From Luteimonas granuli (GTDB taxonomy: Bacteria > Pseudomonadota > Gammaproteobacteria > Xanthomonadales > Xanthomonadaceae), in the NCBI RefSeq assembly GCF_007795095.1, contig NZ_CP042218.1:1674001-1738000 (forward strand): DNA of 64,000 nt, in the 5' to 3' direction. Each line of letters begins with the position of its first letter. The stretch's first letter is position 1. A program made the translations under genes and the position numbers. The notes beneath the pieces are model-generated. The model saw only the letters and a program-made list of their open reading frames with translations. It was not told the origin of the DNA and ran no database searches. Below, piece after piece: positions 2,017 through 19,064 of the stretch.

Positions 2017-3797
<1,781 letters not shown>

Positions 3798-3801
<4 letters not shown>

Positions 3802-5027: not shown

Positions 5028-6094
5028 TCAAGGAGGTGCTCAGCATCCTGCGTGACCCGCGGAGCCGGATGGTGGTGTTCGCGCCGCCGCTGATCCAGCT
5101 CCTCGTCTTCGCCTTTGCGGCGACGCTCGAGGTCAGCAACGTCGGCCTCGCCGTGCACGACCAGGACGCGGGGCGCTGGTCGCACGAGCTGGTCGCGCGA
5201 CTGGACGGCGCGGGATTCGTTTCCGAGGTGCATACGGTCCGCAGCAGCGGCGAGCTGCAGCGGCTGATCGACCGCGGCGAGGTGATCGCCGGACTGGACA
5301 TCCCGGCGGATTTCTCCCGCACCATCGCCGCCGGCGACAGCGGGCGGATACAGGTGCTGGTCGATGGCCGACGCAGCAACGCGGGACAGATCGTCGTGGG
5401 CTACCTGTCCTCGATCGCCACCGGGATCGGGGCCGAGGTCGATCCCGCGGTCGGAGCGCCGCTCGCGGTACGCCACTGGTTCAACCCCAACCTGGTCTAC
5501 CGCTGGTTCATCGTGCCGGGCCTCGTCGGCATCCTGGCGTTCTTCAGTGCGCTCATGCTCACTTCGCTGTCGATCGCCCGGGAACGGGAGCTCGGCACCT
5601 TCGACCAGCTCCTGGTATCACCCACCTCCACGCTCGAGATCATCGTTTCGAAGTCGCTTCCGCCATTGGCGATCGGCACCGTGCTCGGCCTGGTGATGAT
5701 CGCAGCCGGTGCATTCGCGTTCCGGATCCCGTTCACCGGCTCGTTCCTGCTGCTGCTGCTCAGCCTGGTGCTGTTCATCCTTTCGGTGGTCGGCATCGGA
5801 CTGATGATCTCCGCGGTCAGCAAGACCCAGCAGCAGGCCATCCTGGGCGCCTTCGCCATCGGCGTGCCCGCGGTGCTGATGTCCGGCTTTGCAACGCCCG
5901 TGGAGAACATGCCGCTGGCGCTGCAGTGGCTGGCCCAGGCCATCCCGCTCACCCACTTCCTGGTGATCGTGCACGGCAGCGTGCTCAAGGCGATGCCGCC
6001 GGCGGACATCCTGTCCAACATGTGGCCGCTGGCGGCAATCGCGCTGGTGACCTTGACCGCGGCGACCTTCTTCGTCCGGGGACGATTGCAATGA
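4976..6094 (+). CDS. ABC-2 permease, YbhR-like
   Basis: 372 residues. One N-terminal membrane helix (about 28-50) is followed by a periplasmic loop of roughly 120 residues and five C-terminal helices, with the ABC-2 features RELGTFDQLLVSP and a C-terminal VTLTAATFFVRGRLQ. With the preceding permease it would form the heterodimeric membrane part of the exporter powered by the double ATPase. The start has a GAGCG-type site only; the stop overlaps the next start (ATGA, 6091-6094), so coupling is expected. Substrate unknown; E. coli YbhFSR has been linked to drug and cation export. Confidence 0.9.
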   Translation: MARRSPPLVLARLRAQVIKEVLSILRDPRSRMVVFAPPLIQLLVFAFAATLEVSNVGLAVHDQDAGRWSHELVARLDGAGFVSEVHTVRSSGELQRLIDRGEVIAGLDIPADFSRTIAAGDSGRIQVLVDGRRSNAGQIVVGYLSSIATGIGAEVDPAVGAPLAVRHWFNPNLVYRWFIVPGLVGILAFFSALMLTSLSIARERELGTFDQLLVSPTSTLEIIVSKSLPPLAIGTVLGLVMIAAGAFAFRIPFTGSFLLLLLSLVLFILSVVGIGLMISAVSKTQQQAILGAFAIGVPAVLMSGFATPVENMPLALQWLAQAIPLTHFLVIVHGSVLKAMPPADILSNMWPLAAIALVTLTAATFFVRGRLQ

Positions 6095-7566
6095 CGCTCG
6101 AAGAATCCTCCGCTTCCGCCGGTCCCGTGGGCACCACGCCCGGGCCTGCCTTGCGGCCGGGGCCGCTGGTGTCCGGGGTGCTCTGCGCCCTGCTGGCCGC
6201 CTGCACCGTCGGCCCCGACTATCGCGAGCCACCTCCGGTGCACACGGGAACCGGCTGGAGCCTGCCCGTCGTGGCGGAACGCGGTTCGGAAGACTACGCG
6301 TACTGGTGGACCACTCTCGGCGATCCGATGCTCGACCGCCTGGTCGAGGCCGCGCTGGCCGAAAACCTCGACCTCTACCAGGCGGCCGCGCGGATCGATG
6401 AAGCGCGCGCTCTGCGAGATCGGATTGCCGGCGGCCTGGCTCCTGCCGTCGACGTCGGGGGCAGTGTCAACCGGCGCCGGCAAAGTGCGGACGGCTCCCT
6501 GCCGGTCGCCTCGATTCCCGGCATGGATGCCATCCAGACGATCCATGACGTCGGCTTCGACGCCGCCTGGGAACTGGACCTGTTCGGCGGAAAGCGGCGC
6601 GCGCTCCAGGGTGCGAACGCGCGACTTCATGAGGCCGGAATCGAGGCGGAGGGCGTGCGCATGCGCATCGTCGCCGAAGTCGCCCGCACATGGTTCACGG
6701 CGGTGGGTGCCGGGCACGAGATGCGCATGTCGCAGGCGGCGGTTGAGGCGCAGCGTCATTCGCTTGGGCTCCTGGAGTTGCGCCATGCCGCGGGTGTCGC
6801 GTCGCTCGCCGACGTGGACGCCGCGCAGTCCACGCTGGCGACTGCGGAGGCTTCGCTTCCCGGCATCCGCGCCCGCGAGCGTGCGGCCCTCCTGGCGCTC
6901 TCGGTGCTGCTGGGCGAACCACCCGAGCGCGGATTGCTGCTGCTGGAAGAAGCGGCAGCAGGCCTGCCGCCGCTGGCCGAGATCCCGGTCGGCGAGCGCG
7001 CCGACCTCCTGCGTCGTCGGCCTGACGTGCTTGCGGCCGAGCGCCGCCTCGCGGCCAGCACGACCGACATCGGCGTGGCGACGGCAGAGCTTTTTCCGAA
7101 GCTGTCGATTGGCGTTGGCGGCGGCTTCCAGGCGCTCGATGCCGATGGCCTGTTCGATTCCGGCAGCGCCCGATACGGGATCCTGCCCCTGATTTCCTGG
7201 CGCATGTTCGACGGTGGCCGCGTGCGCGCGGAAATACGCGCCCGCGAGGCGGCCCAGTGGCGGGCAGCGTTGGCCTACGAGCAGGCGGTGCTGGCTGCGC
7301 TGGGCGACGCCGAGACGGCAATGGCCGAATACCGGGCCGGGCTGATCGCACTTCAGCGCCACCAGGCCGCGCTGGAGGCCAGCCAGCGCAGCCATGATCA
7401 TGCCGCCCGCCGGCATGCCATGGGCACCATCGCACTGGTCGAGCTTCTCACCGCGCAGCGCCAGCTGCAGGAGGCGAAGGCCGCCGTCACGCGCGCCCAC
7501 ACGGCCGCCGCGGTGCAACTGGTGGCCTTGTACAAGGCGCTCGGAGGCGGCTGGCAGGCGGCATGA
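6091..7566 (+). CDS. Outer-membrane efflux channel lipoprotein (NodT/OprM family)
   Basis: 491 residues. A signal peptide ends in a lipobox (LLAAC, Cys38), so the protein is probably lipidated and anchored in the outer membrane. The typical TolC-fold start GPDYREPPP is followed by long alternating helical and strand repeats. It completes the exporter as a trimeric duct. E. coli ybhGFSR has no such gene and borrows TolC, so here the operon is self-contained. The ATG at 6091 overlaps the permease stop. An upstream in-frame extension exists but would lie inside the permease and push the lipobox inward. Confidence 0.9.
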   Translation: MTLEESSASAGPVGTTPGPALRPGPLVSGVLCALLAACTVGPDYREPPPVHTGTGWSLPVVAERGSEDYAYWWTTLGDPMLDRLVEAALAENLDLYQAAARIDEARALRDRIAGGLAPAVDVGGSVNRRRQSADGSLPVASIPGMDAIQTIHDVGFDAAWELDLFGGKRRALQGANARLHEAGIEAEGVRMRIVAEVARTWFTAVGAGHEMRMSQAAVEAQRHSLGLLELRHAAGVASLADVDAAQSTLATAEASLPGIRARERAALLALSVLLGEPPERGLLLLEEAAAGLPPLAEIPVGERADLLRRRPDVLAAERRLAASTTDIGVATAELFPKLSIGVGGGFQALDADGLFDSGSARYGILPLISWRMFDGGRVRAEIRAREAAQWRAALAYEQAVLAALGDAETAMAEYRAGLIALQRHQAALEASQRSHDHAARRHAMGTIALVELLTAQRQLQEAKAAVTRAHTAAAVQLVALYKALGGGWQAA

Positions 7567-7654: not shown

Positions 7655-8107
7655 ATGAACAGAGAGAAGTTTTTCCCCATCCTGATCGCGGTGGCCGTCG
7701 CGGTTGTTGTCCTGCCGGTATTCGCCGACGCGCGGGCCGGAGACGGGGAGTCCATGGGCCTGCGAACCGTGATGAAGCGCCTCGGGCAGGACATGCAGGC
7801 CGTGACCGGCGCGATTTCCCGGGAGGACTGGGCCATGGTCGAGGAACTGGCGCCGGGGATCGCCCGTCATGCGGAGCCGCCAATGGCGGAGAAGGTCCGC
7901 ATCCTCAGGTGGCTGGGAGTCGATGCCGGCACGTTCCGGGAGTTCGATGCCCAGGTCGAGCGCGCGGCGGACGGCATGGCCGGCGCCGCGGCACGTGGCG
8001 ATGGCCCCCAGGTCATTCACGCGTTTGCCGAGGTGCAGCAGGCCTGCCTCGGCTGTCATCAGCAGTACCGCAAGCCGTTCGCGAAACACTTCTACGGCCG
8101 GCGATGA
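7655..8107 (+). CDS. Periplasmic cytochrome c'-like protein
   Basis: 150 residues with a signal peptide (hydrophobic 7-23, cleavage near ADA-RA) and one haem attachment site CLGCH at 131-135 close to the C-terminus. That position and the all-helical mature chain match class II cytochromes (cytochrome c'), which carry the haem near the C-terminus and often bind NO or serve as small electron carriers. A strong ribosome site (AAGGAGAA, 7643-7650) sits just before the ATG. It follows the exporter operon in the same direction after 88 bases and converges with the porin gene 10 bases later. Role unknown. Confidence 0.82.
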   Translation: MNREKFFPILIAVAVAVVVLPVFADARAGDGESMGLRTVMKRLGQDMQAVTGAISREDWAMVEELAPGIARHAEPPMAEKVRILRWLGVDAGTFREFDAQVERAADGMAGAAARGDGPQVIHAFAEVQQACLGCHQQYRKPFAKHFYGRR

Positions 8108-8117
8108 GTGACCCGGC

Positions 8118-9293
8118 CTAGAAGCGCAGCGTGGCGCGCACGTAGAGGTCGTCGTCGCGCCGCGCGCGGGGAGCGGTGGCGGGCAGGTCGATCTCCTCGC
8201 GGCGACGGAAGCGCGCGTCGATCTGCCATGCCGGCGTGGCCTGCCAGACCCAGCGCACTTCGGCCAGCGTGTCGTTGGGCCGGAAGTCGCTCGAGATCAG
8301 CCAGCCGTCGGCGACCCGGCCGTAGACGATGCCGAGGTCGTGGTCGGGCAGGATGTCCATGAAGTTGAGCGAGGCCTGCCAGGACAGCGAATCGGCGCTG
8401 CCGGTGCCGGAGTTCATCGCTTCGCGGCGGGGCGTGTCGGGGGCGTAGCCGAGCTCGCCGCCGAGCCGCAGCTTCGTTCCACCCTGGCCCAGCGGCCACT
8501 GCGCGGTGGCCTTGGCGGTGACGGCGAGATAGTCCTCGGTCCGCGGATCGGCGACGCCGTACGGGTGCAATGCCGACGGCAGCCAGTTGAGCGTGACCAC
8601 CCGCTGGACCAGCGGGCCGATCACGGTCTTCGATTCGGCGACCGCCAGCACGCCCACGCGCGAGTCGCTGTCGCTGAACCCGAGTGGCCGGCGAAGGGTT
8701 CCGGTCGGGCCGCGGCGGTCGTTGTGGCGCACGATGAAGTGGGTGGTCCAGTCTTCGCTGGCGCGCCACTGCAGCCAGGCGCCGTCGGTCCAGGTGATGT
8801 CGAAGTTGGTGCTGTCGTTCTGGTCGAGCGACTTCTTCATCACGTCGTCCAGGCCCCACGCCGCCTGGAAGCGGCCGAAGCGCAGGCTCCACGGCGCCTC
8901 GGCCGGGCGGTACTCCAGATACGCCTCGTCGATCGTGCCCTGGCCGTCCTCGAGGCCGGCCGGACCCGGCGCGTACGTCCGCATCCAGAATTCCTCGTTG
9001 TCCTGGTCGGTGTCGAGCCGGGCGGCGACACGGCCGCTGAACTGCCAGCCACCGCCGAGGTCGCCGCGCAGGCGGAAGCGGACGCGGGCGCGGAGGCTGT
9101 CGGCGTCGGTCTCGGCGCCGCTGCGGGCGCGGGTCTCCGAGGCGACGTGGCCGAAGCGCACGTCGCCGCTGGTCTTCCAGGCGTCGGCGGCATGGGCACC
9201 GCCGGACGCCAGCGCCAGTGCGACAGCGGCGACGAGGCCCTGGCGGGAGAACGGGACGGGCCACCGGGCAGGCTGGCGGGGACGTGTATGCAT
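8118..9293 (-). CDS. Outer-membrane beta-barrel porin-like protein
   Basis: 391 residues. The signal peptide ends near GGAHA-AD, and the rest is made of alternating short strands with polar loops, ending in a C-terminal aromatic strand (LYVRATLRF) with the terminal Phe expected of outer membrane barrels. The ATG at 9293 has a good ribosome site (GGAGG, about 9 bases upstream); the frame is open farther upstream but without a signal peptide. It lies 104 bases after the reactive-sulfur operon on the same strand, so it may be its last gene or have its own promoter. Substrate unknown. Confidence 0.8.
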   Translation of the reverse strand: MHTRPRQPARWPVPFSRQGLVAAVALALASGGAHAADAWKTSGDVRFGHVASETRARSGAETDADSLRARVRFRLRGDLGGGWQFSGRVAARLDTDQDNEEFWMRTYAPGPAGLEDGQGTIDEAYLEYRPAEAPWSLRFGRFQAAWGLDDVMKKSLDQNDSTNFDITWTDGAWLQWRASEDWTTHFIVRHNDRRGPTGTLRRPLGFSDSDSRVGVLAVAESKTVIGPLVQRVVTLNWLPSALHPYGVADPRTEDYLAVTAKATAQWPLGQGGTKLRLGGELGYAPDTPRREAMNSGTGSADSLSWQASLNFMDILPDHDLGIVYGRVADGWLISSDFRPNDTLAEVRWVWQATPAWQIDARFRRREEIDLPATAPRARRDDDLYVRATLRF

Positions 9294-9396
9294 GTGGGCC
9301 TCCGGGCGACAGGGCGCCGGGGCGGACGATGGACCCGACTGCCCCGGATCTGCGTGAAACTCTGCGCGCCCGCGACGGCGCGCGCATTGACGCAGG

Positions 9397-10221
9397 TCAA
9401 TCCCCGATCGCAACCCCGAAGCGCTTCCGCAGGGTGCCGGCCAGGGTGGCACGGGTGAGCTCGCCCATGTGGCTGTCGACCAGCCGGCCTTCGGCGTTGA
9501 AGAACAGCGTCGTCGGCAGGCCGCGGGTGCCGGTCTCCAGCATCGCCTGCGAATGCGGGTCGAGCAGGACATGGTCGAGCTCGAGTCCGGCGGCATCGAG
9601 ATACTCGCGGATCGTGCCGCGGTCCTCGCCCTGGTTGACCAGCACGAAGGCGACGCCCGGCCAGCGGCGCTGCGCGTCCTCCAGCACGGGCATCTCGCGC
9701 CGGCAGGGCGGGCACCAGGTCGCCCACAGGTTCAGCACCATCGGGCGCCCGGACAGGTCGGCGAGCGTGACGGGTTCTCCGTCGAGCGTCGCCAGTTCGA
9801 ACGCGGGCAGCGGCGGCGCCGAGCGCTGCATCATCATCAGCAGGCCGCCGAATGCGGCCCAGGCCAGCATGCCGGCCGCGATGCCCGCGAGCAGCGGCCG
9901 CCGCAGCGGGATGCGCTTCCGGGTCCGCCACCATGCGAAGGCCAGCGCGGCGGGCAGCCCCGCCCACCACAGGAAGCCGCCGTCGCCGATGGCGACGATC
10001 GACTTCGGCGCAGCCATGTACTCCGGCCACCAGAGCAGGATGTAGCCCAGGCGCGCGGCCAGCAGACCGACCATCACCGCGTCCACGAACAGCCCCACCG
10101 CCACCCGGTGCGGACACTCCCCGGGCGCGCACGGCAGGCGCCGTGCCCAGCCGCGCACCACCAGCCAGCCGACCACGGTCGCTGCGGCCGCCATGATCGA
10201 GTGGATCGGGAACGGACCCAC
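9397..10221 (-). CDS. Membrane thiol-disulfide oxidoreductase: Lgt-like membrane domain fused to a TlpA thioredoxin domain
   Basis: 274 residues. The first 130 or so residues carry several membrane helices and begin with a GPFPIHS motif like the start of prolipoprotein diacylglyceryl transferase. No complete Lgt catalytic core is evident, so this is probably an Lgt-derived anchor. The C-terminal part is a TlpA/ResA-like thioredoxin fold facing the periplasm with WCPPC near residue 170 and a cis-proline segment GLPTTLFF. A GTG at 10221 gives the full Lgt-like start; an ATG at 10194 is the alternative. It follows the SQR-like gene closely in the same operon and could reduce periplasmic disulfides or persulfides. 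Confidence 0.8.
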   Translation of the reverse strand: MGPFPIHSIMAAAATVVGWLVVRGWARRLPCAPGECPHRVAVGLFVDAVMVGLLAARLGYILLWWPEYMAAPKSIVAIGDGGFLWWAGLPAALAFAWWRTRKRIPLRRPLLAGIAAGMLAWAAFGGLLMMMQRSAPPLPAFELATLDGEPVTLADLSGRPMVLNLWATWCPPCRREMPVLEDAQRRWPGVAFVLVNQGEDRGTIREYLDAAGLELDHVLLDPHSQAMLETGTRGLPTTLFFNAEGRLVDSHMGELTRATLAGTLRKRFGVAIGD

Positions 10222-10226
10222 GCCGG

Positions 10227-11354
10227 TCAACGGTAGGCCTTCAGGTAACGGGCCTCGAAGCGCTGCTTGAGCCAGTGGAAGGCGCGCAGGTTCGGCAGGG
10301 CGAGGTTCCGCCGGCCGCCGCGGTAGACCAGCATGCCGCTGTCGAGCGCGTCGACGATGCACACCAGCTCGGTGCGGAAGCCGTGGTCCGCGCGCTGGTC
10401 CCGCAGTCCGGCGGCGATGTTCCTCGCCACCGCGTCCGCCTGCAGGTCGGCCTGGTGGGCCTGCTTGGCCATCCACTCCGGGCCGGGATAGCTGCCGGCG
10501 TCGCCGGCGACGTACACGCGCTCCATCCCGAGTACGCGGCAGTGCGCGTCGGCGGCGATGAAGCCGCCTTCCGACTGCGGCAGCGCGCTGTCTTCCAGCC
10601 ATGCCGGGCCGGTCAGGCCGGGCATGAACAGGATCAGGTCGGCGTCGAATCCGTCGCCCTCGGTCACGACCCTGCCGGGTTCGAAGCGCAGCGGCTTGTG
10701 GCCGAGATGGGTACGGATGCCCAGCGACTCCATGCGCGCGAGCATCTTCGCCACCGCCGCGGGCCCGAGCCGCTGCCCGGGCTGCGCAGCCGGATTGAAG
10801 AACACCAGCTCGAAGCGCTCGCGCCGCCCCTGCCGGCGCAGCAGGGTGTCGATGCCGAACAGGAACTCGAACATCGGCCCGCCGCGCACCGCACCGGGCT
10901 CCTTCGGATTGCTGGAGAAACCCACCGCGATCGTCCCGCCGTCCATGGCCGCGAGCCGGTCGCGGATCGACTCCGCGGCCGCGATGCCTTCGCAGGGAAT
11001 GATCGCGTGCTCGATGCCCGGGAGCTTGCGCAGATAGCGTCCGCCGGTGGCGATGACCAGCACATCGTTGCCAAGCTCGCCCTGGTCGGTGACCACGCGG
11101 CGCCCACCGTCGAGCACACGGGTCACGCTGCCCTGGTGCCAGCGCACGTCGTTGCGTTCGAAGAAGCGTGCGAGCGGAATGCGCAAGTCGTCGCCGCTGC
11201 GCTTGCCCGACGGAAGCCAGATCAGGCTCGGCAGGTAGACCAGCTCCTTGCGCGGCGAGACCACGGTGATCGCGTCGCGCACGCCGAGCGCGCGCAGCCG
11301 GCGGATGGTGGTGAGCGCGGCGAAGCCGCTGCCGAGGATGACGATCTGCTTCAT
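10227..11354 (-). CDS. SQR-like FAD-dependent oxidoreductase lacking one of the three redox cysteines
   Basis: 375 residues. The N-terminal FAD site (VILGSGFAALTTIRRL), the ATG motif (VIATGGRY) and the second FAD motif (VYVAGDAGSYPG) place it with sulfide:quinone reductases and flavocytochrome c sulfide dehydrogenases. Cys121 and Cys332 align with two of the three SQR cysteines, but the place of the middle one (Cys160 in the other SQR here, GASCFGPAYEF) reads GAVRGGPMFEF, with Arg. It may use another sulfur acceptor or pass electrons differently. The start overlaps the thioredoxin stop (ATGA, 11351-11354). Confidence 0.83.
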   Translation of the reverse strand: MKQIVILGSGFAALTTIRRLRALGVRDAITVVSPRKELVYLPSLIWLPSGKRSGDDLRIPLARFFERNDVRWHQGSVTRVLDGGRRVVTDQGELGNDVLVIATGGRYLRKLPGIEHAIIPCEGIAAAESIRDRLAAMDGGTIAVGFSSNPKEPGAVRGGPMFEFLFGIDTLLRRQGRRERFELVFFNPAAQPGQRLGPAAVAKMLARMESLGIRTHLGHKPLRFEPGRVVTEGDGFDADLILFMPGLTGPAWLEDSALPQSEGGFIAADAHCRVLGMERVYVAGDAGSYPGPEWMAKQAHQADLQADAVARNIAAGLRDQRADHGFRTELVCIVDALDSGMLVYRGGRRNLALPNLRAFHWLKQRFEARYLKAYR

Positions 11355-11788
11355 GGCGCGTGCTCGCGTGCCCAGCGCACGATCCCGTCTTCCGGCAGCG
11401 CGCCCGACACGCGCGCCAGCTCGCGGCCACCGTGGAACAGCGCCAGCGTCGGGATGCTGCGGATGCCGAAGCGCGTGCCCAGCGCGGGCTCGGCCTGGGT
11501 GTCGAGCTTGCCCAGCCGCATGCGGGGTTCCAGCTGCGCGGCGGCGGCCTCGAAGTGTGGCGCCATCATCCGGCAAGGCCCGCACCAGGGCGCCCAGAAA
11601 TCGACCAGCAGCGGCAGCTCCGAGCGCGCGGCGTGCAGGTCGAAGCTGGCGGCATCCAGTACGACCGGCTGCGCGGTGAACAGGGCCTTGCCGCAGCGGC
11701 CGCATGCGGGCGCATCGCCGAGGCGTTCGCCCGGCACCCGGTTGAGCGCCCCGCAGTGCGGGCAGGCGACCTTGAGCGGGCTGTTCAC
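11351..11788 (-). CDS. trxC: Thioredoxin 2 (TrxC)
   Basis: 145 residues. The N-terminal zinc motif has CPHC (9-12) and CGRC (29-32), and the thioredoxin domain carries the active site WCGPC (68-72) and the cis-proline loop SIPTLALF. The zinc-finger extension is diagnostic for TrxC, which is cytosolic, oxidative-stress related and able to reduce protein disulfides and persulfides. Both ends overlap neighbours by ATGA, so it is a core member of the operon. In this setting, persulfide reduction is the likely task. Confidence 0.9.
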   Translation of the reverse strand: MNSPLKVACPHCGALNRVPGERLGDAPACGRCGKALFTAQPVVLDAASFDLHAARSELPLLVDFWAPWCGPCRMMAPHFEAAAAQLEPRMRLGKLDTQAEPALGTRFGIRSIPTLALFHGGRELARVSGALPEDGIVRWAREHAP

Positions 11789-12264
11789 GACCCGGCCTCG
11801 AAGCTCTTGTCGCCCATCAGCACCCGGCCCTCGCCATCGAGCACGGTGACGTCGACATCGATGCCCTGGCGAACGCTCTGGGTGACCACGCAGAAGTCCT
11901 CGAACTGCGCCAGCACCCGGTCCAGCGCCTGGTAGTCGGCGTTGTGGCCCGGCAGGTGCAGGGTGACCGAGGCGGTCGGGATCCGCCAGCGGCCTTCGGC
12001 GTTGCGCTGCGCGGCCGCGGTGACCTCGGCCCGCAGCGGCCCCGGCGAGTTGCGCTGCTTGCGCAGTGCGAACAGCAGGCTGGCCACCAGGCAGTTGGCG
12101 ACCGCCGCCAGCAGCATCCGGGTGGGGTTGGGACCGCGGTCCTGGCCCAGCGGCGGCGACTCGTCCGTCAGCAGCGGCTCCAGGCCGGTGTCGTGGAAGT
12201 GGACGCGGAACGCATAGTCCCCGTCCTGTTCGAGGGTGATGCGGATCGGGGTGTCGATGCTCAT
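11785..12264 (-). CDS. OsmC/Ohr-family thiol peroxidase-like protein
   Basis: 159 residues with the OsmC fold signature: a first cysteine in AVANCLVASL (Cys58) and a second in FEDFCVVTQS (Cys125). These are the catalytic pair that reduces organic peroxides in OsmC/Ohr. The subgroup is nearer the general OsmC-like proteins than Ohr, so the real substrate could be peroxide or an organic persulfide. Start and stop overlap the RND pump and trxC by ATGA, giving tight coupling. Confidence 0.87.
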   Translation of the reverse strand: MSIDTPIRITLEQDGDYAFRVHFHDTGLEPLLTDESPPLGQDRGPNPTRMLLAAVANCLVASLLFALRKQRNSPGPLRAEVTAAAQRNAEGRWRIPTASVTLHLPGHNADYQALDRVLAQFEDFCVVTQSVRQGIDVDVTVLDGEGRVLMGDKSFEAGS

Positions 12265-15200
12265 GCCGTTCTCCTCTGGAGCAGCGCGTAGTACAGCAGC
12301 GGGATCACGACCAGGGTCAGCACGGTCGAGACCAGGATGCCGAACAGCAGTGATATGCCAAGGCCGTTGAAGATCGGGTCGTCGATGATGAACACCGCGC
12401 CTGCCATCGCCGCCAGGGCGGTCAGCGCGATCGGCTGCGCGCGCACCGCGCAGGCGTCGACCACCGCCTGCGCCGGCGTGCGCCCCTGTTCCAGCAGATG
12501 GTTGATGAAGTCCACCAGCAGGATCGAGTTGCGCACGATGATGCCGGCCAGCGCGATCATGCCGATCATGCTGGTGGCGGTGAACTGCATGCCCATCAGC
12601 GCGTGCCCGGGCATCACCCCGATCACGGTCAGCGGGATCGGCGCCATGATCACCAGCGGCACCACGTAGTTGCGGAAGTAGGCCACCACCAGCAGGTAGA
12701 TCAGCACCAGGCCGGCCGCATAGGCGATGCCCATGTCGCGGAAGGTCTCGTAGGTGATCTGCCACTCGCCGTCCCACTTGATCGCGAAGCCGGCGGTTTC
12801 TTCCGGCTGGGCGATGTAGTGCTGCGACAGCCGCTGGCCGTCGATGGCGTTGTCGGCGACCTGGCCGACGAGGTCGAACATGCCGTACAGCGGGCTGTCG
12901 GCGACGATGTTCTCGTCGCCCGTCACGTACACCACCGGCAGCAGGTCCTTGTGGTGGATGGCGCCGTCCCAGCCGGCCTCGCGCACCTGCACCAGCGCCG
13001 ACAGCGGCACCAGCCGGCCGTCGCCGCCGCGCACGCGCAGCGAAAGCACGCCGTCGAGCGAGGCCTGGTCGGACGCCGGCAGGCGCAGGCGGATCGGCCG
13101 CGGGTACTTCGAGCTGCCGTCGATCACGTACGTGGCATCGTGGCCCGACAGTCCGGCGGCGATGGTCTCGGCGATCGCCGCCTGCGACACGCCCAGCCGC
13201 GCGGCGCGCTCGCGGTCGATGACCAGGACCTCGCGCGCGGCGTCGGCCTCGACGCTGGTGTCGACGTCGACGATGCCCTCGGTGTCGAGGAAGCGCTGCT
13301 CCAGCGCGAGCCCGATGCGGCGCTGGCGGTCGTAGTCGGGGCCATAGACCTCGGCCACGATCGGCGACAGCACCGGCGGCCCCGGCGGCACTTCGACCAC
13401 CTTCACCGAGGCGCCGTGGCGGCGGCCGATCGCCGCCAGCTCCGGGCGCAGCGCGACCGCGATGTCGTGGCTCTTGCGGCTGCGTTCGTGGCGGTCGACC
13501 AGGTTGACCTGCAGGTCGCCGACGTTGGCGCCGGCGCGCAGGTCGTACTGGCGCACCAGGCCGTTGAAGTTGATCGGCGCGGCGGTGCCGGCGTAGCCCT
13601 GGTAGTCCAGCACTTCGGGCACCTCATCGAGGACCCGGGCCAGCTCGGTGAGCAGGGCGCCGGTGTCCTCGAGCGTGCGGCCCTCGGGCAGGTCGACCAC
13701 CACCTGCAGCTCCGACTTGTTGTCGAAGGGCATCATCTTCATCACCACCAACCTGAATCCGGCCAGGCTCACGGCCAGCAGCACCAGCCCCGCCATCGAA
13801 GCGAACAGCAGGTGGCGTCGGCGCGCGCCGCGCGCGGGATCGAGGAACGGCGTCATCAGCCGCTCGAAGAAACGGTGCAGGCGCGCGGCGATCGTGCCGG
13901 GTGCCTGGCCCGGGCCGCCGGCGTGGCCACCATCCGCGCCATCCGCGCCTTTGGAGCCGACGTGCCGCTTCAGCAGCTTCAGCGACAGCCACGGCGTCAC
14001 GATCAGCGCGATCAGCAGCGACAGCAGCATGCCGACCGAGGCGTTGATCGGGATCGGGCGCATGTACGGCCCCATCAGCCCGCTGACGAAGGCCATCGGC
14101 AGCAGTGCCGCGATCACGGTGAAGGTGGCGAGGATGGTCGGTCCGCCGACCTCGTCGACCGCCGGCGGGATCGCCTCGCGCAGGCTCTTTCCGCCGAGCG
14201 CCATGTGCCGGTGGATGTTCTCCACCACCACGATCGCGTCGTCCACCAGGATGCCGATCGAGAAGATCAGCGCGAACAGCGACACCCGGTTGAGGGTGAA
14301 GCCCATCGCCCAGGACGCGAACAGGGTCAGCGACAGGGTCAGCACCACCGCGGTGCCGATCACCAGCGCCTCGCGGCGGCCGAGCGCGAACAGCACCAGC
14401 AGCACCACCGCCGAGGTGGCGAAGAACAGCTTCTTGATCAGCGTCTTCGCCTTGTCGCTGGCGGTCAGGCCGTAGTCGCGGGTCACCTCGACCTGGATGC
14501 CCTCCGGGATGACCTGGCCGCGCAGCGCGTCGACGCGTTCGAGCACGCTGGTGGTGATGTCGGAGGCGTTGCTGCCCGGCTTCTTCGCGATCGCCAGCGT
14601 CACCGCGGGCGCGGTGCCGGCTTCGGGGCCCGCGCGCCCGGCCGGCGCGCCGTGCCAGACGTAGCTCGACGGCGTGTCGGTGGTGTCGGTGATCCGGGCC
14701 ACGTCGCCCAGCCGTACCGGCTGGCCATCGTCCACGCCCAGCACCAGCGCCTCCACGTCCTCGCGCCCGGCGAGGAAGCTTCCGGAGGTGACCTGGACCA
14801 CGCCGTCGGCGCCGACGCGCTCACCGGCCTGGCGCGCGAGGTTGGCGGCCTGCAGCGCCCCGGCCAGGTCCTCGACCGCGAGGCCGTGGCTGGCCAGGCG
14901 GCTGGCGTCGAGCTCGACCATCACCGCACGCTCCGGGGCGCCGATGGTGAACACGTCGCGGGTGCCGGGGATGCGCTTGAGCTCGGTCTCCAGCGTGTGC
15001 GCGACCTCGGCCAGCTCGCGGGGGCCGCGATCCGGGTCGTCGGTCCACAGCGTCAGCGCCATCACCGGCACGTCGTCGATGCCCTTGGGCTTGATGAGCG
15101 GCTGGCCGACGCCCAGGCCCTGCGGGATCCAGTCCTGGTTGGAGAAGACCTTGTCGTACAGACGCACCAGCGCCGGCTGGCGCTTCACGCCGACCTCGAA

Positions 15201-15515
15201 TTCGACGGTGGCCACCACCATGCCGGGGCGGCTGACCGAATAGGTGTGCTTGACGTCCTCGATTTCCGACAGCACCTGCTCCAGCGGATACGCCAGCATC
15301 TGCTCCACCTGGCGCGCATCCGCGCCCGGGAAGGGGACGATCACGTTGGCCATGGTGACGTCGATCTGCGGCTCTTCCTCCTGCGGCGTGACCATGACCG
15401 CGACCACGCCCAGCAGCAGGCCGAGCAGGGCCAGCACCGGCGTCAGCGGATTGGACTGGAAGGTGCGCGCAAGGCGGCCGGAGATGCCCAGCCGCCTGCT
15501 TTCCGGGGCGGCCAT
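12261..15515 (-). CDS. RND-family efflux pump, inner membrane subunit
   Basis: 1084 residues, the length of the AcrB group, with twelve predicted membrane helices split by two large periplasmic loops. The TM4 proton relay is present as ILVDDAIVVVENIHR (Asp425, Asp426). It pairs with the adaptor encoded one base upstream; no outer membrane channel of the TolC type lies in this operon. It sits between sulfide:quinone reductase and OsmC/trxC genes, so the cargo is probably related to reactive sulfur (for example polysulfide or organic sulfur products), which is inference. Methionine-rich metal motifs are not obvious. Confidence 0.9.
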   Translation of the reverse strand: MAAPESRRLGISGRLARTFQSNPLTPVLALLGLLLGVVAVMVTPQEEEPQIDVTMANVIVPFPGADARQVEQMLAYPLEQVLSEIEDVKHTYSVSRPGMVVATVEFEVGVKRQPALVRLYDKVFSNQDWIPQGLGVGQPLIKPKGIDDVPVMALTLWTDDPDRGPRELAEVAHTLETELKRIPGTRDVFTIGAPERAVMVELDASRLASHGLAVEDLAGALQAANLARQAGERVGADGVVQVTSGSFLAGREDVEALVLGVDDGQPVRLGDVARITDTTDTPSSYVWHGAPAGRAGPEAGTAPAVTLAIAKKPGSNASDITTSVLERVDALRGQVIPEGIQVEVTRDYGLTASDKAKTLIKKLFFATSAVVLLVLFALGRREALVIGTAVVLTLSLTLFASWAMGFTLNRVSLFALIFSIGILVDDAIVVVENIHRHMALGGKSLREAIPPAVDEVGGPTILATFTVIAALLPMAFVSGLMGPYMRPIPINASVGMLLSLLIALIVTPWLSLKLLKRHVGSKGADGADGGHAGGPGQAPGTIAARLHRFFERLMTPFLDPARGARRRHLLFASMAGLVLLAVSLAGFRLVVMKMMPFDNKSELQVVVDLPEGRTLEDTGALLTELARVLDEVPEVLDYQGYAGTAAPINFNGLVRQYDLRAGANVGDLQVNLVDRHERSRKSHDIAVALRPELAAIGRRHGASVKVVEVPPGPPVLSPIVAEVYGPDYDRQRRIGLALEQRFLDTEGIVDVDTSVEADAAREVLVIDRERAARLGVSQAAIAETIAAGLSGHDATYVIDGSSKYPRPIRLRLPASDQASLDGVLSLRVRGGDGRLVPLSALVQVREAGWDGAIHHKDLLPVVYVTGDENIVADSPLYGMFDLVGQVADNAIDGQRLSQHYIAQPEETAGFAIKWDGEWQITYETFRDMGIAYAAGLVLIYLLVVAYFRNYVVPLVIMAPIPLTVIGVMPGHALMGMQFTATSMIGMIALAGIIVRNSILLVDFINHLLEQGRTPAQAVVDACAVRAQPIALTALAAMAGAVFIIDDPIFNGLGISLLFGILVSTVLTLVVIPLLYYALLQRRTA

Positions 15516-15516
15516 C

Positions 15517-16611
15517 TCATTCGCTCCCGCGGGCCGCGACCAGGGCCTGGCGCGCCGCCACCGGGTCGAGGGCGATGGTCTCGCCGGGCTGGAGGCCCGC
15601 GATCACCTCCACGCCGTCCGGCGTGGCCTCGCCCAGCCGCAGCTGGCGCAGCGACAGCCGGCCGTCGGCGAGCACGTAGGCCGCGCTGACCTCGCCGCGA
15701 CGCACGATCGCGCGGGCCGGGATACGCGGCTGCGACGTCCCGGCCACCGCCGGGAACACGACCTTGGCGGTGCTGCCCGGCACCGGCGCCGGGTCCAGCG
15801 CCGGCAGCAGCACGCGCACGCGGACGGTGTGCGTGGCCGCGTCGGCGGCGGGGAAGACGATGACTTCGCCGGCGTCGACCGTGCGCCGGTCATGCAGCCG
15901 CAGGCTGGCGCGCGGGTCGGCGCGCACCTGCTCGGCCACGGCCTGCGGCAGGTCGACCTCGATCCGCAGCGCGTCCGGCGAGAATACCGTCGCCAGGGGC
16001 TGGCCCATCGCCACCGATTCGCCGGGTTCGACGTGGCGGCGGGCGACGATGCCGTCGTAGGGAGCGCGCACGACGGTGTAGCCGACGGTCTGGCCGGCGC
16101 TGGCCAGGCGGGCGCTGGCGGCGTCGCGCGCGGCCACGGCGGCGTCGCGCGCGGCCTGCATCCGTTCGAGCTGCGAGCGCGACACGTACTGGTCGCCGGC
16201 CAGCTCCCGGTAGCGCCGGTAGTCGGCCTCGGCCTCGCGCGCGGCGGCCTCGCCGGCATGCAGCTGGGCGCGGGCGGCGTCGACCTCGGACTGCTGCTCG
16301 ACCGCACTCAGGCGCACCAGCACGGTGCCGGCGGAAACGCGGTCATCGACGTCGTGTGCGACCTCGGCCACGCGGCCGCTGGTCTGCGCGGTCAGCGTGG
16401 CCTGGCGCACCGCCTCGACCACGCCGTCCCAGGCGCGGCCCTGTCCGGTGGCGGGCTCGGCGACGGTGACGGTCTCCAGGCCTTCGATCGGGCCCGGGCC
16501 GCGGCGGTCGTCGTCCGCGCCGCCGCAGGCCGCGAGCGTGGCCGTCAGCAGGGTGAGGCCGGCGATCCGGGCCAGCGCCCGCGTCGATGCCGCCATGGAG
16601 CCGTTTCGCAC
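15517..16611 (-). CDS. RND efflux periplasmic adaptor lipoprotein
   Basis: 364 residues. The signal peptide ends in a lipobox (TLAAC), so it is anchored in the inner membrane by lipid. Lipoyl half-motifs flank a coiled-coil hairpin (VEQQSEVDAARAQLHAGEAA and on), followed by a barrel domain and the membrane-proximal part, typical of AcrA/MexA. Its gene ends one base before the RND pump start, so they are a co-translated pair. It lies ten bases upstream of the small DUF2892 gene. Confidence 0.9.
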   Translation of the reverse strand: MRNGSMAASTRALARIAGLTLLTATLAACGGADDDRRGPGPIEGLETVTVAEPATGQGRAWDGVVEAVRQATLTAQTSGRVAEVAHDVDDRVSAGTVLVRLSAVEQQSEVDAARAQLHAGEAAAREAEADYRRYRELAGDQYVSRSQLERMQAARDAAVAARDAASARLASAGQTVGYTVVRAPYDGIVARRHVEPGESVAMGQPLATVFSPDALRIEVDLPQAVAEQVRADPRASLRLHDRRTVDAGEVIVFPAADAATHTVRVRVLLPALDPAPVPGSTAKVVFPAVAGTSQPRIPARAIVRRGEVSAAYVLADGRLSLRQLRLGEATPDGVEVIAGLQPGETIALDPVAARQALVAARGSE

Positions 16612-16621
16612 GTCGCGCTCC

Positions 16622-16825
16622 TTACTTGAACGCGCAGCCGCTGCGCACGCCCAGCTTCGCGAACAGCTTCGCGGCCGGGCAGAAGCCGGTGAAGGCCGAC
16701 TGCAGCAGGTTCAGCCCGACGAAGGCGGTCAGCAGCAGCCACCAGGGCGAGACGAAATGGCCCAGCGCGAGGCTGGCGAGGATCATCACGCCGGCGAAGG
16801 CGAAGATGGCGCGGTCGAGGTTCAT
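16622..16825 (-). CDS. Small DUF2892 (YgaP-type) inner membrane protein
   Basis: 67 residues with two membrane helices (about 5-20 and 27-45) and the typical C-terminal motif FCPAAKLFAKLGVRSGC with two cysteines. DUF2892 is the membrane half of YgaP rhodanese and is often found beside sulfide or persulfide genes. A clear ribosome site (AAGGAGAA) precedes the ATG at 16825. Lies between the SQR and the RND adaptor genes. It may act as a sulfur-compound binding membrane partner; the molecular function of this domain is not known. Confidence 0.85.
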   Translation of the reverse strand: MNLDRAIFAFAGVMILASLALGHFVSPWWLLLTAFVGLNLLQSAFTGFCPAAKLFAKLGVRSGCAFK

Positions 16826-16872
16826 GGTGGGTTCTCCTTCGAGGTTGGTTCGGGGTTGGTTGGGGAACAGGT

Positions 16873-18144
16873 TCAGCGGGTGCGCGCGACGCCCAGCAGC
16901 CTCAGCACGTACTTCTCGTACACGGGCTCGGTGTTGCCGGACTTCATCTTCATCAGGAAGTACTTTTCGAAGGCGACCTTGGCCAGGTGCACCCACTTTC
17001 CGGCCTTCGCCCAGGTGACGTTGCGCGGCGGCATCTGCGGCAGCGCCACGAAGGCCACGCCGGTGTCGCCCATGTCGGCCAGGCAGATCGCGTTCCAGGT
17101 GGCCTCGGCCGTCGCCGGCCGCCCCTCGATGTCGGCGCGGATGTTCTCGACGATCGCGCCGACCATCGACTCGATCATGAAGCCGGTCTTGGGCGCTCCG
17201 GTCGGGACCGGCGTGGCTTCCACGGGCGGAATCGCGACGCATACCCCGAGCGAGAACACATTGGGCCAGGCCGCGTTCCGCTGGTGCCGGTCGATCTGGA
17301 CGAAGCCGCGCGGGTTGCACAGCCCCTCGATGCCGCGGACGGCGTCCACGCCGGTGAAGGCGGGCAGCACCATGGAGTACCGGAAGGGCAGCACGTGGTC
17401 CTTCTTCGGCTGGCCGTCTCCGTCCATCTCGACCACGGCCATTTCGCCGTCACGGACCGCGGCGATCTTCGCGTTGGTGATCCAGCTGATGTGGCGCTGG
17501 CGGAACTCGGACTCCATCAGCCCCTTCGAGTCGCCGACGCCGCCCAGGCCCATGTGGCCGATGTAGGGCTCCGGGGTCACGTAGGTCATCGGGACACGGT
17601 CGCGCAGCCTGCGCTTGCGCAGGTCGCGGTCGAGGATCATCGCGAACTCGTAGGCCGGGCCGAAACAGCTTGCGCCGGGAGCGGCGCCGACGACGACCGG
17701 GCCCGGGTCCGCGAGGAAGCGCTGGTACGCGTCCCACGCGGCGCTGGCATGCGGAGTGGTGCAGACCGACTGGGTGAAACCGTCGTCCGGGCCGAGGCCA
17801 GGGACCTCGTCGAAGGCCAGCCGCGGGCCGGTGGCGATGACGAGATGGTCGTAACCGAGCGCGCGGCCGTCGCGCAGCAGCACGCGGTTGGCGCCGGGGT
17901 CGACGCGTTCGGCGCCCACGGCCTCGAAGGCGATCTTCTTCTTCGCCAGGTGTTCGCGCACGGGGATCTGGATGTCACCCGGTTCGCGCCAGCCCACCCC
18001 GACCCATGGGTTGGACGGGGTGAACGAAAACAGCTCGCCTTCCCCGATCACGGTGATGGCGGGATCGGCACCCAGCGCGCTGCGGAGTTCGTACGCGACG
18101 CTCATGCCGCCGATGCCGGCACCAAGAACCACGATATGTGTCAT
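16873..18144 (-). CDS. sqr: Sulfide:quinone oxidoreductase
   Basis: 423 residues. FAD motif VVLGAGIGGMSVAYEL at the N-terminus, then the three redox cysteines in family positions: Cys128 (QSVCTTPH), Cys160 (GASCFGPAYEF) and Cys354 (NAICLADMGD). The C-terminal segment has amphipathic helices (KVAFEKYFLMKM) expected for membrane association. The enzyme oxidises sulfide to sulfane sulfur and passes electrons to quinone. It is first in a leftward operon, divergent from a SqrR/BigR-type repressor. A strong ribosome site (GGGGAGG) lies before the ATG. Promoter -35 TTGACT and -10 TAATTT with a 17-base spacer fit this gene. Confidence 0.92.
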   Translation of the reverse strand: MTHIVVLGAGIGGMSVAYELRSALGADPAITVIGEGELFSFTPSNPWVGVGWREPGDIQIPVREHLAKKKIAFEAVGAERVDPGANRVLLRDGRALGYDHLVIATGPRLAFDEVPGLGPDDGFTQSVCTTPHASAAWDAYQRFLADPGPVVVGAAPGASCFGPAYEFAMILDRDLRKRRLRDRVPMTYVTPEPYIGHMGLGGVGDSKGLMESEFRQRHISWITNAKIAAVRDGEMAVVEMDGDGQPKKDHVLPFRYSMVLPAFTGVDAVRGIEGLCNPRGFVQIDRHQRNAAWPNVFSLGVCVAIPPVEATPVPTGAPKTGFMIESMVGAIVENIRADIEGRPATAEATWNAICLADMGDTGVAFVALPQMPPRNVTWAKAGKWVHLAKVAFEKYFLMKMKSGNTEPVYEKYVLRLLGVARTR

Positions 18145-18201
18145 GTCCGTACCTCCCCGGGGGTTGCCCGGCCTGTTCCGGGCGAATGGCCCGGCGGAGC
18201 T

Positions 18202-18240
18202 AAATTAGCACTGGCTTATATTAGAGTCAACTGATATTAT
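18202..18240. promoter_or_regulatory. Divergent promoters with SqrR/BigR-like operator
   Basis: This AT-rich island in a G+C-rich gap holds an imperfect inverted repeat ATATTAG-6-CTGATAT (18218-18237). Leftward promoter for sqr: -35 TTGACT (complement of 18225-18230), 17-base spacer, -10 TAATTT (complement of 18202-18207). Rightward -10 TATTAT at 18235-18240 serves the repressor gene. The dyad covers both promoters, which suits auto-repression and control of the sqr operon. AT-rich dyads of this kind are known for BigR and SqrR. Binding itself is inferred. Confidence 0.6.
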
Positions 18241-18292
18241 TCCGGCATGCCTCGACCCCCGGGCCGCGGCACATCCTGGCAACACGGGTGGA

Positions 18293-18655
18293 ATGACGAT
18301 GGGAAAAACCAAGCGCATGTCCGGCTTCGATCTGGAAGACATGCAGGCCCATGCCGGCGAGGCGGCGAAGCTGCTCAAGGCGCTCGCCAACGAGCGCCGG
18401 CTGCAGGTGCTGTGCCTGCTCGCCGGCGGCGAGCGTTCGGTCGGCGAGATCAACGAACTGCTCGACCTGAGCCAGTCGGCGCTCTCCCAGCACCTGGCGG
18501 TGCTGCGCGAAGAAGGCCTGGTGCAGACCCGCCGCGACGCGCAGCTCGTGTACTACTCGCTGGCGCCGGGCCCGGCGGCCGCGGTGATGGAAACGCTGCA
18601 CGGCATCTACTGCGGCGCCGCAGAGCCGTCACCCCGCCGCAGGACCGCGGCATGA
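18293..18655 (+). CDS. ArsR-family persulfide sensor, SqrR/BigR-like repressor
   Basis: 120 residues with a winged helix (recognition part LLDLSQSALSQHLAVLREEG). Only two cysteines occur, Cys41 and Cys107, matching the sensor pair of Rhodobacter SqrR in number and position. In that family the pair forms a tetrasulfide link in response to persulfide and releases DNA. There are no metal-binding cysteine clusters as in ArsR or SmtB. The numbering supports the ATG at 18293 over the one at 18299. Divergent from sqr, with the likely operator between them. It would derepress the whole block when sulfide or persulfide rises. Confidence 0.88.
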   Translation: MTMGKTKRMSGFDLEDMQAHAGEAAKLLKALANERRLQVLCLLAGGERSVGEINELLDLSQSALSQHLAVLREEGLVQTRRDAQLVYYSLAPGPAAAVMETLHGIYCGAAEPSPRRRTAA

Positions 18656-18701
18656 GCGTGGTCGGGGACGACCGCACCCACCAACAGGAGGAAACACGGA
18701 C

Positions 18702-19064
18702 ATGTCCGCGATTGATTCGTACGCCGAGCTCACCCGCAGGGTCTCGAAGAACCTGACCCCGCTGCGCACCCACAACGCCGATGTCATGCAGGGCTTCGGC
18801 GCGCTGAGCAAGGCCGCGCTGGCGCCGGGGGTGCTCGACGAGAAGACCAAGGAACTGATCGCGATGGCGATCGGCGTGGCCAGTCGCTGCGACGCCTGCC
18901 TGGGTTTCCACGCCAAGGCGCTGGTGCGCCTCGGGGCGACGCCGGAAGAGTTCCGCGAGATGCTGGGCGTGGCGGTGTACATGGGCGGCGGCCCGTCGCT
19001 GATGTACGCGGCCAACGCCATGGCGGCGTTCGAAGAGTTCAGCGGCGACGCCCGGCGCGACTGA
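18702..19064 (+). CDS. Carboxymuconolactone decarboxylase/AhpD-like protein
   Basis: 120 residues, one CMD domain. The AhpD-type redox motif is CDACLGFH (Cys63, Cys66, His70), which in AhpD supports alkylhydroperoxidase activity. A strong ribosome site (AGGAGGAAA) precedes the ATG at 18702. It lies 46 bases after the persulfide sensor in the same direction and is probably co-transcribed with it, so it may be part of the sulfur and thiol stress response. It is a thiol-redox protein; the substrate is not known. Confidence 0.85.
   Translation: MSAIDSYAELTRRVSKNLTPLRTHNADVMQGFGALSKAALAPGVLDEKTKELIAMAIGVASRCDACLGFHAKALVRLGATPEEFREMLGVAVYMGGGPSLMYAANAMAAFEEFSGDARRD

Follow-up and report, generated by a model that had tools for sequence, protein, structure and literature searches.

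The 64,000-nucleotide stretch of Luteimonas granuli DNA analysed here (the window; positions 1674001-1738000, G000:C1, of a 2.9 Mb genome) carries at 8118-19064 an ArsR-family repressor gene that diverges from genes for a sulfide:quinone oxidoreductase (SQR), a small DUF2892 membrane protein, an RND pump with its periplasmic adaptor (MFP) and a set of thiol-redox proteins (Table 1). As read from its sequence, this gene run represents a genuine and conserved regulon of the persulfide type, built around an RND pump. Control of the operon by persulfide is well supported by the anatomy of the locus and we regard it as highly probable. That the run confers tolerance of sulfide and persulfide as an operon of the BigR/SqrR kind, operating through the whole series of steps proposed below, is a reading towards which we lean.

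The repressor and its candidate operator

Related pump loci were taken from a one-genome-per-species collection, the best 80 of 587 confirmed loci being used; among these, the closest pumps in named records are those of a gammaproteobacterial metagenome-assembled genome (95%) and of Luteimonas wenzhouensis (86%). The sequence reaches 4 kb or more upstream of the pump in 64 of the 80 loci, and in 41 of those 64 an ArsR match above 60 bits lies within 6.5 kb (hereafter repressor-linked loci); the remaining 23 have no ArsR match above 60 bits nearby, a weaker one being present in L144. The sensor cysteines Cys41 and Cys107, named in the original prediction, which was made from the sequence before this analysis, are indeed present and are kept in all 44 ArsR matches above 60 bits in the 80 loci. 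The repressor scores 94.9 bits with the NCBIfam BigR model, under the cut-off of 155, and its top solved relatives are HlyU, the ArsR structure set 6o8k-o (which we take to be SqrR), YgaV and BigR. Homology, the cysteine pair and a predicted palindromic operator in its own divergent promoter together place the protein in the BigR/SqrR/YgaV family of ArsR repressors.

The divergent arsR/sqr promoter carries two overlapping palindromes (18202-18237), both of which are contained in the stretch 18190-18250 that had been put forward for a gel shift. Within the L. granuli genome, 18218-18237 is the only place that matches ATATYAGN6CTNATAT without mismatch; at two mismatches the search returned both promoter copies and one weak place at 1771383-1771402, and the reversed-pattern control of this search in the same genome found none. 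Sequence upstream of the operon is available for 71 of the 80 loci (41 repressor-linked and 30 other), and a palindrome matching at least 12 of the 14 positions was found within 400 bases ahead of the operon in 42 of the 71 (26/41 repressor-linked, 16/30 other). The controls at this threshold gave 4 of 1420 for shuffled stretches and 7 of 3039 for windows taken elsewhere in these loci. At a threshold of at least 11/14 the palindrome was found in 50 of the 71 loci, the controls giving 18/1420 and 20/3039, respectively. As the motif was first spotted in repressor-linked loci, the unlinked loci provide an independent test; 13 of the 23 loci without a repressor nearby carry the palindrome at 12/14 or better, 106-312 bases before the adaptor match, and these include three Neptunomonas, Thiothrix lacustris, Ectothiorhodospira magna and Thioalkalivibrio sulfidiphilus. 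A further unlinked locus (L118) has a palindrome of 11/14, and L110, L125, L128, L132, L133, L135, L140, L144 and L153 have none at 11/14 in the 400-base stretch. The Vibrio cholerae HlyU operator matches at 10/14 with equal spacing, but 164 of 2000 shuffles match equally well and the likeness was therefore left out of the support. No published BigR operator sequence was found in the literature searched, and the reported SqrR site, ATTC-N8-GAAT (PMC9774250), differs in form from the palindrome described here.

The regulator and the palindrome also occur at a distance from the pump. We searched 18 of the 23 genomes that have the pump without a repressor nearby, and an ArsR match (E <= 1e-12) was present in 16 of them, each of the 16 having one with both cysteines; among the 19 aligned matches, all except that of L176 have the pair. 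The palindrome, allowing one mismatch, occurs at 87 places in 14 of the 18 genomes, compared with 7 places in 5 genomes for the reversed pattern. Among 20 other palindrome places, one in Thiothrix precedes an SQR gene and one in T. sulfidiphilus a DUF2892 gene. Further places lie ahead of a gene for a DUF302 protein, one for a thioredoxin-like protein and one that has a rhodanese gene behind it. Pfam searches of five genes behind other palindromes gave DUF302, one rhodanese and one Nitro_FeMo-Co above the cut-off and left two without a match above it. In two Thiothrix-like genomes, all three SQR genes found carry the palindrome at 12/14 or better. Palindromes also stand before secreted Gly/Asn-rich repeat proteins in Thiothrix (L201, 2017-2445; L205, 2558-3064), which, by reading, might be sulfur globule proteins.

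The conserved core of the pump loci

The RND pump and its adaptor are constant across the 80 loci. Co-occurrence was counted within 7 kb of the pump, and the 41 repressor-linked loci contain DUF2892 in 40, SQR in 25, OsmC in 14, persulfide dioxygenase (PDO) in 13, TrxC in 11 and carboxymuconolactone decarboxylase (CMD) in nine; rarer companions are the flavoprotein (5), DUF3365 (4), the Lgt-TlpA fusion (1) and the porin (1). The 23 loci without a repressor nearby yielded SQR in four, DUF2892 in three, TrxC in two, and PDO and DUF3365 in one each. The recurrence of the gene order in several genera makes it more than chance. Three further families of open reading frames (ORFs) recur near the pump in the 80 loci, of rhodanese type in nine, BLH-phosphatase type in four and TauE type in three, each typed from one checked member. 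In a FastTree phylogeny of 100 pumps (L140 omitted, the repressor-link labels of part of the loci assigned by hand), 56 pumps form one clade with a support of 100, of which 50 are repressor-linked and six unscorable; eight further repressor-linked pumps lie outside it. The core counts and the pump tree indicate that the long run of the window is one elaborate form, the stable unit of the linked loci being DUF2892, MFP and RND. In L149, for instance, the order is PDO-MFP-SQR-RND-DUF2892 with the palindrome ahead, and a TauE-type sulfite exporter gene also lies near the pump. Two DUF2892-MFP-RND modules with arsR are present in the one genome of L. wenzhouensis (L079 and L086), SQR being found at one only. 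In strain YD-1 of this species, L079 comprises almost the complete run, a porin not having been seen there. A Tll0287/DUF3365-type gene with a heme motif, missing from the window, stands between RND and osmC in L022 (about 7674-8423) and also in L023, L027 and L028.

Related modules are found on plasmids of distant bacteria. A plasmid collection held 36 records with a related pump; 14 of them were examined, and in the 12 annotated ones DUF2892 lies near the pump in nine and ArsR in eight. Paracoccus pantotrophus has a metallo-beta-lactamase (MBL) hydrolase, a YgaP-like protein, a sulfur transferase and ArsR with DUF2892-MFP-RND; Azospirillum has MFP-RND-rhodanese, ArsR and DUF2892; a Pseudanabaena plasmid has ArsR, DUF2892, SQR (39%), rhodanese, MFP, RND and DsbA; and Methylocella provides a further example of a related cluster. 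Two sphingomonad plasmids typed as conjugative hold SQR (60-61%), DUF2892, TolC, CMD, rhodanese, MFP, RND, ArsR, DUF3365 and TlpA. The sulfide modules of L231 and L232, on plasmids typed as conjugative, have their own TolC, CMD and TlpA, and L232 also has cydABX. In the two unannotated records tblastn detected SQR and ArsR, and in Aeromonas DUF2892 as well. Vibrio sp. HDW18 has DUF2892 only, P. galeata has rhodanese and DsbA without ArsR or DUF2892, and the Polaromonas and Alloyangia plasmid records show no such context. Palindromes, here given without a chance control, were seen at 12/14 between DUF2892 and arsR in Aeromonas. Matches of 11/14 precede both the adaptor and arsR in Azospirillum, an arsR in Pseudanabaena and the MBL gene in Paracoccus.

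Sulfide oxidation inside and outside the run

The SQR of the run aligns over its full length with that of Acidithiobacillus ferrooxidans (3sz0), and Cys128, Cys160 and Cys354 fall on the cysteines of the latter; Cys160 is invariant among 44 relatives, Cys354 is found in 43 of them, the remaining one having a gap, and Cys128 in 41. By this homology and the three catalytic cysteines, 16873-18144 qualifies as an SQR gene. The flavoprotein at 10227-11354, which the original prediction had called a second SQR-like protein, retains the fold and lacks one of the catalytic cysteines. Its model (predicted local distance difference test, pLDDT, 66, a moderate value) has an SQR/NDH-2 fold with 3hyv as the nearest solved SQR, and Cys121, Cys332 and Arg157 are each kept in 9/9 relatives; neither the protein nor the nine relatives have a cysteine at the place equivalent to Cys160. 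A role as second SQR was rejected because the Cys160/Cys356-type redox pair is incomplete, with Cys332 kept and the Cys160 place without cysteine; the flavoprotein is probably not a normal SQR.

Domain searches found no PDO or Blh among the ten proteins of the run, which in this respect departs from a canonical BigR operon. The absence of dioxygenase and rhodanese that had been noted from the sequence holds for the run and fails for the genome, which has six rhodanese matches in five loci and a PDO-type metallo-hydrolase at 2076487-2077338. The latter is 61% identical to the PDO beside the pump in L025 and resembles the solved MBL-fold proteins 9g8t, 4efz and 4ysk, the last presumably a sulfur dioxygenase. 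No palindrome at 10/14 or better was found in the 14 kb around it, and on this ground the gene seems to lie outside the local regulon. A survey of 61 genomes (L. granuli and 60 relatives, each protein at its own E-value limit) found PDO in 39, this SQR in 16 and this pump in 24. The proposal that sulfane sulfur is reduced or exported instead of being oxidised was consequently abandoned, for this genome, in view of its PDO and rhodaneses, and for the module generally, PDO and rhodanese also lying inside the clusters of relatives, with PDO near the pump in 13 of the 41 repressor-linked loci.

The pump and its thiol-redox partners

The best solved relatives of the RND permease are OqxB, MexK, AcrD and AcrB, and it scores 472 bits with the multidrug RND model and 239 bits with the CusA/CzcA model, both under the model cut-offs. 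Homology to ACR_tran, an Asp pair in transmembrane helix 4 (TM4; Asp425-Asp426) and an MFP partner assign it to the HAE type. At the TM10 position of the proton-relay lysine, which we take to be Lys940 in AcrB, it has Arg995, the comparison being made with AcrB; the Asp pair and this Arg are each present in 99 of 100 aligned rows, with one gap. The pump model (pLDDT 66.6) confirms the drug-pump fold and indicates nothing beyond it. No outer membrane channel gene was found among the proteins of the run by domain search. A NodT-type outer membrane channel ORF (by reading, within 5926-7566) closes a neighbouring ABC efflux set and is a possible channel partner of the pump.

Cysteines are strongly conserved among the smaller partners. 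In DUF2892, Cys49 is kept in 61/61 relatives and Cys64 in 39/61; Cys58 and Cys125 of OsmC are present in 23/23 relatives, and all six cysteines of TrxC in 21/21. For the predicted Lgt/TlpA fusion, the TlpA domain stands, its CPPC motif being kept in 3/3 aligned sequences, while the Lgt part spans positions 8-119 of the 240 of the PF01790 profile, about half, and is not a full-length Lgt. Cys22/Cys27 of the Lgt part, considered as an extra redox pair, are not conserved in two aligned relatives, and this idea was dropped.

Organisation of the gene run

All genes named in the original prediction were recovered in the given order by gene calls and domain searches, arsR on the forward strand and sqr-DUF2892-MFP-RND-osmC-trxC-flavoprotein-Lgt/TlpA-porin on the reverse strand. 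They are as tightly packed as had been described, since from MFP to Lgt/TlpA each gene overlaps the next or is one base from it: RND/OsmC, OsmC/TrxC and TrxC/flavoprotein overlap by 4 bases and flavoprotein/Lgt-TlpA by 10 if the start is at 10236, with gaps of 1 (MFP-RND), 10 (DUF2892-MFP), 47 (SQR-DUF2892) and 103 bases (Lgt/TlpA-porin). The GC content at third codon positions of the frames is 0.83-0.97, and a promoter and terminator scan gave nothing exceeding chance.

Table 1 Features of the gene run and their positions in the window
Feature	Position	Strand	Basis
ArsR-family repressor, BigR/SqrR/YgaV/HlyU type, Cys41 and Cys107	18293..18655	+	PF01022
Operator-like palindrome, ATATTAG-N6-CTGATAT, ATATTAGAGTCAACTGATAT	18218..18237		13/14 of consensus ATATTAG-N6-CTAATAT
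Second palindrome copy, overlapping the first, AAATTAGCACTGGCTTATAT	18202..18221		12/14
Sulfide:quinone oxidoreductase (SQR), Cys128, Cys160, Cys354	16873..18144	-	545 bits to 3sz0
DUF2892/YgaP-like membrane protein, Cys49	16622..16825	-	PF11127
RND periplasmic adaptor (MFP), lipobox-like Cys29 by reading	15517..16611	-	TIGR01730, 193.5 bits (cut-off 94.9)
RND permease, drug-pump (HAE) type	12261..15515	-	PF00873, 509 bits
OsmC-like thiol protein, Cys58 and Cys125	11785..12264	-	PF02566
Thioredoxin TrxC with zinc ribbon	11351..11788	-	NF008229, 140.7 bits (cut-off 125)
SQR-fold Pyr_redox_2 flavoprotein, Cys121 and Cys332	10227..11354	-	Alignment to SQR
Half Lgt-like membrane part fused to TlpA/ResA-type domain, CPPC	9397..10236 (start 10236 or 10194)	-	PF01790, PF08534
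Porin-like outer membrane protein, 3' end of run	8118..9293	-	PF13609
CMD (AhpD-like) family protein, CDAC, 3' of arsR	18702..19064	+	By reading and same-named annotated proteins beside related pumps

The ABC efflux set (ATPase, ABC-2 type permeases; by reading) occupies 2017-7566 on the forward strand and is convergent with the operon. Next to the porin, at 7655-8107 on the forward strand, a small protein carrying the c-type heme motif CLGCH is encoded, and a 63% relative stands at the equivalent place in L077/L078 (one contig).

Proposed mechanism and alternative explanations

In the mechanism that we propose, the ArsR repressor would occupy the double palindrome between arsR and sqr. By analogy with its family, persulfide building up from sulfide oxidation would place a sulfur bridge between Cys41 and Cys107, and the repressor would leave the DNA. 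SQR would pass electrons from sulfide to quinone and yield sulfane sulfur, and the constant core of DUF2892 and RND/MFP may then use an unlinked TolC-type channel to expel polysulfide, elemental sulfur or a small-molecule persulfide present in the inner membrane or the periplasm. Leftover sulfane sulfur could be reduced by OsmC and TrxC in the cytoplasm and by the TlpA domain in the periplasm, these being candidate natural persulfide reductants in two compartments. RND pumps load from the periplasm or the membrane face; the gene set would be best accounted for by export, from there, of a compound that SQR produces or that originates from sulfide. We consider the case for export of a sulfur compound by the pump to be evenly balanced, sulfane sulfur export being our best guess. 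The idea that the pump serves solely to export the SQR product is weakened, as 16 of the 41 repressor-linked loci are without this SQR type within 7 kb; an SQR of this type was also not found at E 1e-40 in 11 of the 18 genomes in which the pump is present and the repressor is not close to it, other SQR types not being searched. The core persists without this SQR nearby and the substrate should therefore also come from other sulfane sulfur sources. More tentatively, and with some doubt, we suggest that DUF2892 and RND/MFP may form a dedicated, old sulfane-sulfur export machine across Gammaproteobacteria, Alphaproteobacteria and Cyanobacteria, partly carried on conjugative plasmids. This machine would be the effector that persulfide regulons have in common, and SQR, dioxygenase, rhodanese, OsmC and TrxC would be accessories present in some of them.

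Several results weigh against our proposal. The palindrome is absent at 11/14 in 9 of 41 repressor-linked and 12 of 30 other loci, 10 of 14 distant loci are without it at the same threshold, and just 6 of 10 ArsR proteins of the distant plasmid loci have both cysteines. Five of eight SQR genes (five genomes) in the genomes searched in trans have no palindrome at 11/14 in their loci, and many of the 20 other palindrome places precede genes without a known sulfur role; by reading, several palindromes precede tRNA nucleotidyltransferase, citrate synthase, ribosomal protein and coproporphyrinogen oxidase genes, and many precede unnamed ones. The pump is drug-pump-like in sequence and predicted fold, which fits many substrates. 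In Azospira suillum, deletion of a similar operon, or of sqr alone, left the H2S oxidation rate unchanged (PMC5358917), the similarity being one of described gene content.

The pump could be an ordinary multidrug RND pump, raised by the persulfide repressor as part of a general stress programme and acting on drugs or membrane-active compounds. This is what its HAE-type sequence and fold and its best solved matches would suggest, and in E. coli the sensor relative YgaV has an effect on tolerance to antibiotics (PMC9774250); we nevertheless hold it to be unlikely, because DUF2892 in 40 of the 41 repressor-linked loci and sulfur-gene neighbours over such distances would be unexpected for a drug pump. 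Still less probable is that DUF2892 and the pump export an end product (thiocyanate, sulfite or thiosulfate) and not sulfane sulfur itself. The usual substrates of RND drug pumps are bulky or hydrophobic, the run has no rhodanese, and in L149 the TauE-type sulfite exporter gene coexists with the pump; rhodanese does lie near the pump in several loci, and thiocyanate export has been proposed for the membrane domain of YgaP (PMC4730233). Removal of metal sulfides, or of metals complexed or freed by sulfide, has been suggested for Azospira RND pumps (PMC5358917), and we consider it improbable here, given the lower CusA/CzcA score and that domain searches found no metal-binding partner in the run. 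Allochromatium RND genes raised on pyrite versus sulfide (PMC11267869) were not used, the pump being annotated as CzcA.

Sulfide detoxification is described mainly as oxidation by SQR, dioxygenase and rhodanese with sulfite or thiosulfate being exported. If the most constant target of persulfide repressors is an RND pump accompanied by a very small, Cys-bearing membrane protein, cells may also expel reactive sulfur, which would show how organisms deal with SQR products without storage and may connect drug tolerance that depends on pumps with exposure to sulfide. No characterised RND pump that exports sulfur was found in the titles and abstracts of the open-licence literature searched, outside which most subscription papers lie, and a dedicated export machine would, as far as these text searches show, be the first RND family devoted to reactive sulfur. 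The operator motif allows candidate regulon members to be listed in new gammaproteobacterial genomes, and the recurrence of the module in distant bacteria makes the question of the pump substrate directly testable.

Comparison with known systems

The pump resembles AcrB/OqxB-type pumps in its fold, TM4 Asp pair and MFP partner and differs from them in Arg995 for the TM10 Lys, in a run without a channel gene and in its sulfur gene context. The association of RND pumps with regulators of this kind is already in print: a survey made for Hyphomicrobium sHdrR indicated that RND pump genes appear to be targets of ArsR regulators that respond to sulfane sulfur (PMC12423496). Section 2.1 of that survey describes the same association and does not give the operator, the core gene set or the reductive partners. 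In Azospira suillum, Dsui_3440-3443 form an operon that encodes an unknown protein, an RND pump, SQR and MFP. Bar-seq singled this operon out and its expression was high in the presence of H2S, while a DUF2892 gene located elsewhere rose about 10-fold (PMC5358917). That operon shares SQR, RND and MFP with ours and its order is partly that of L149, whereas OsmC, TrxC, a second flavoprotein and TlpA are not named in the description of it. Together with the cysteines kept in 44/44 sensors and the conserved palindrome, this likeness argues by anatomy for the part of the original prediction that placed a persulfide-type repressor ahead of a sulfide operon with RND and thiol-redox proteins; the replacement of oxidation falls away.

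The BigR operons of Xylella, Agrobacterium and Acinetobacter baumannii likewise combine a Cys-Cys ArsR with sulfide-detoxification genes and membrane proteins (PMC7315123, PMC5823870); as described there they hold Blh or PDO2 and YeeE/YedE-type proteins, whereas the run of the window has SQR, DUF2892 and an RND pump and no PDO. The ygaVP pair of E. coli combines a regulator of the SqrR/BigR type with YgaP, whose membrane domain is of the same kind (PMC9774250, PMC4730233). In YgaP this domain is accompanied by a rhodanese domain, whereas in the window DUF2892 is a protein by itself, with the RND pump encoded after it.

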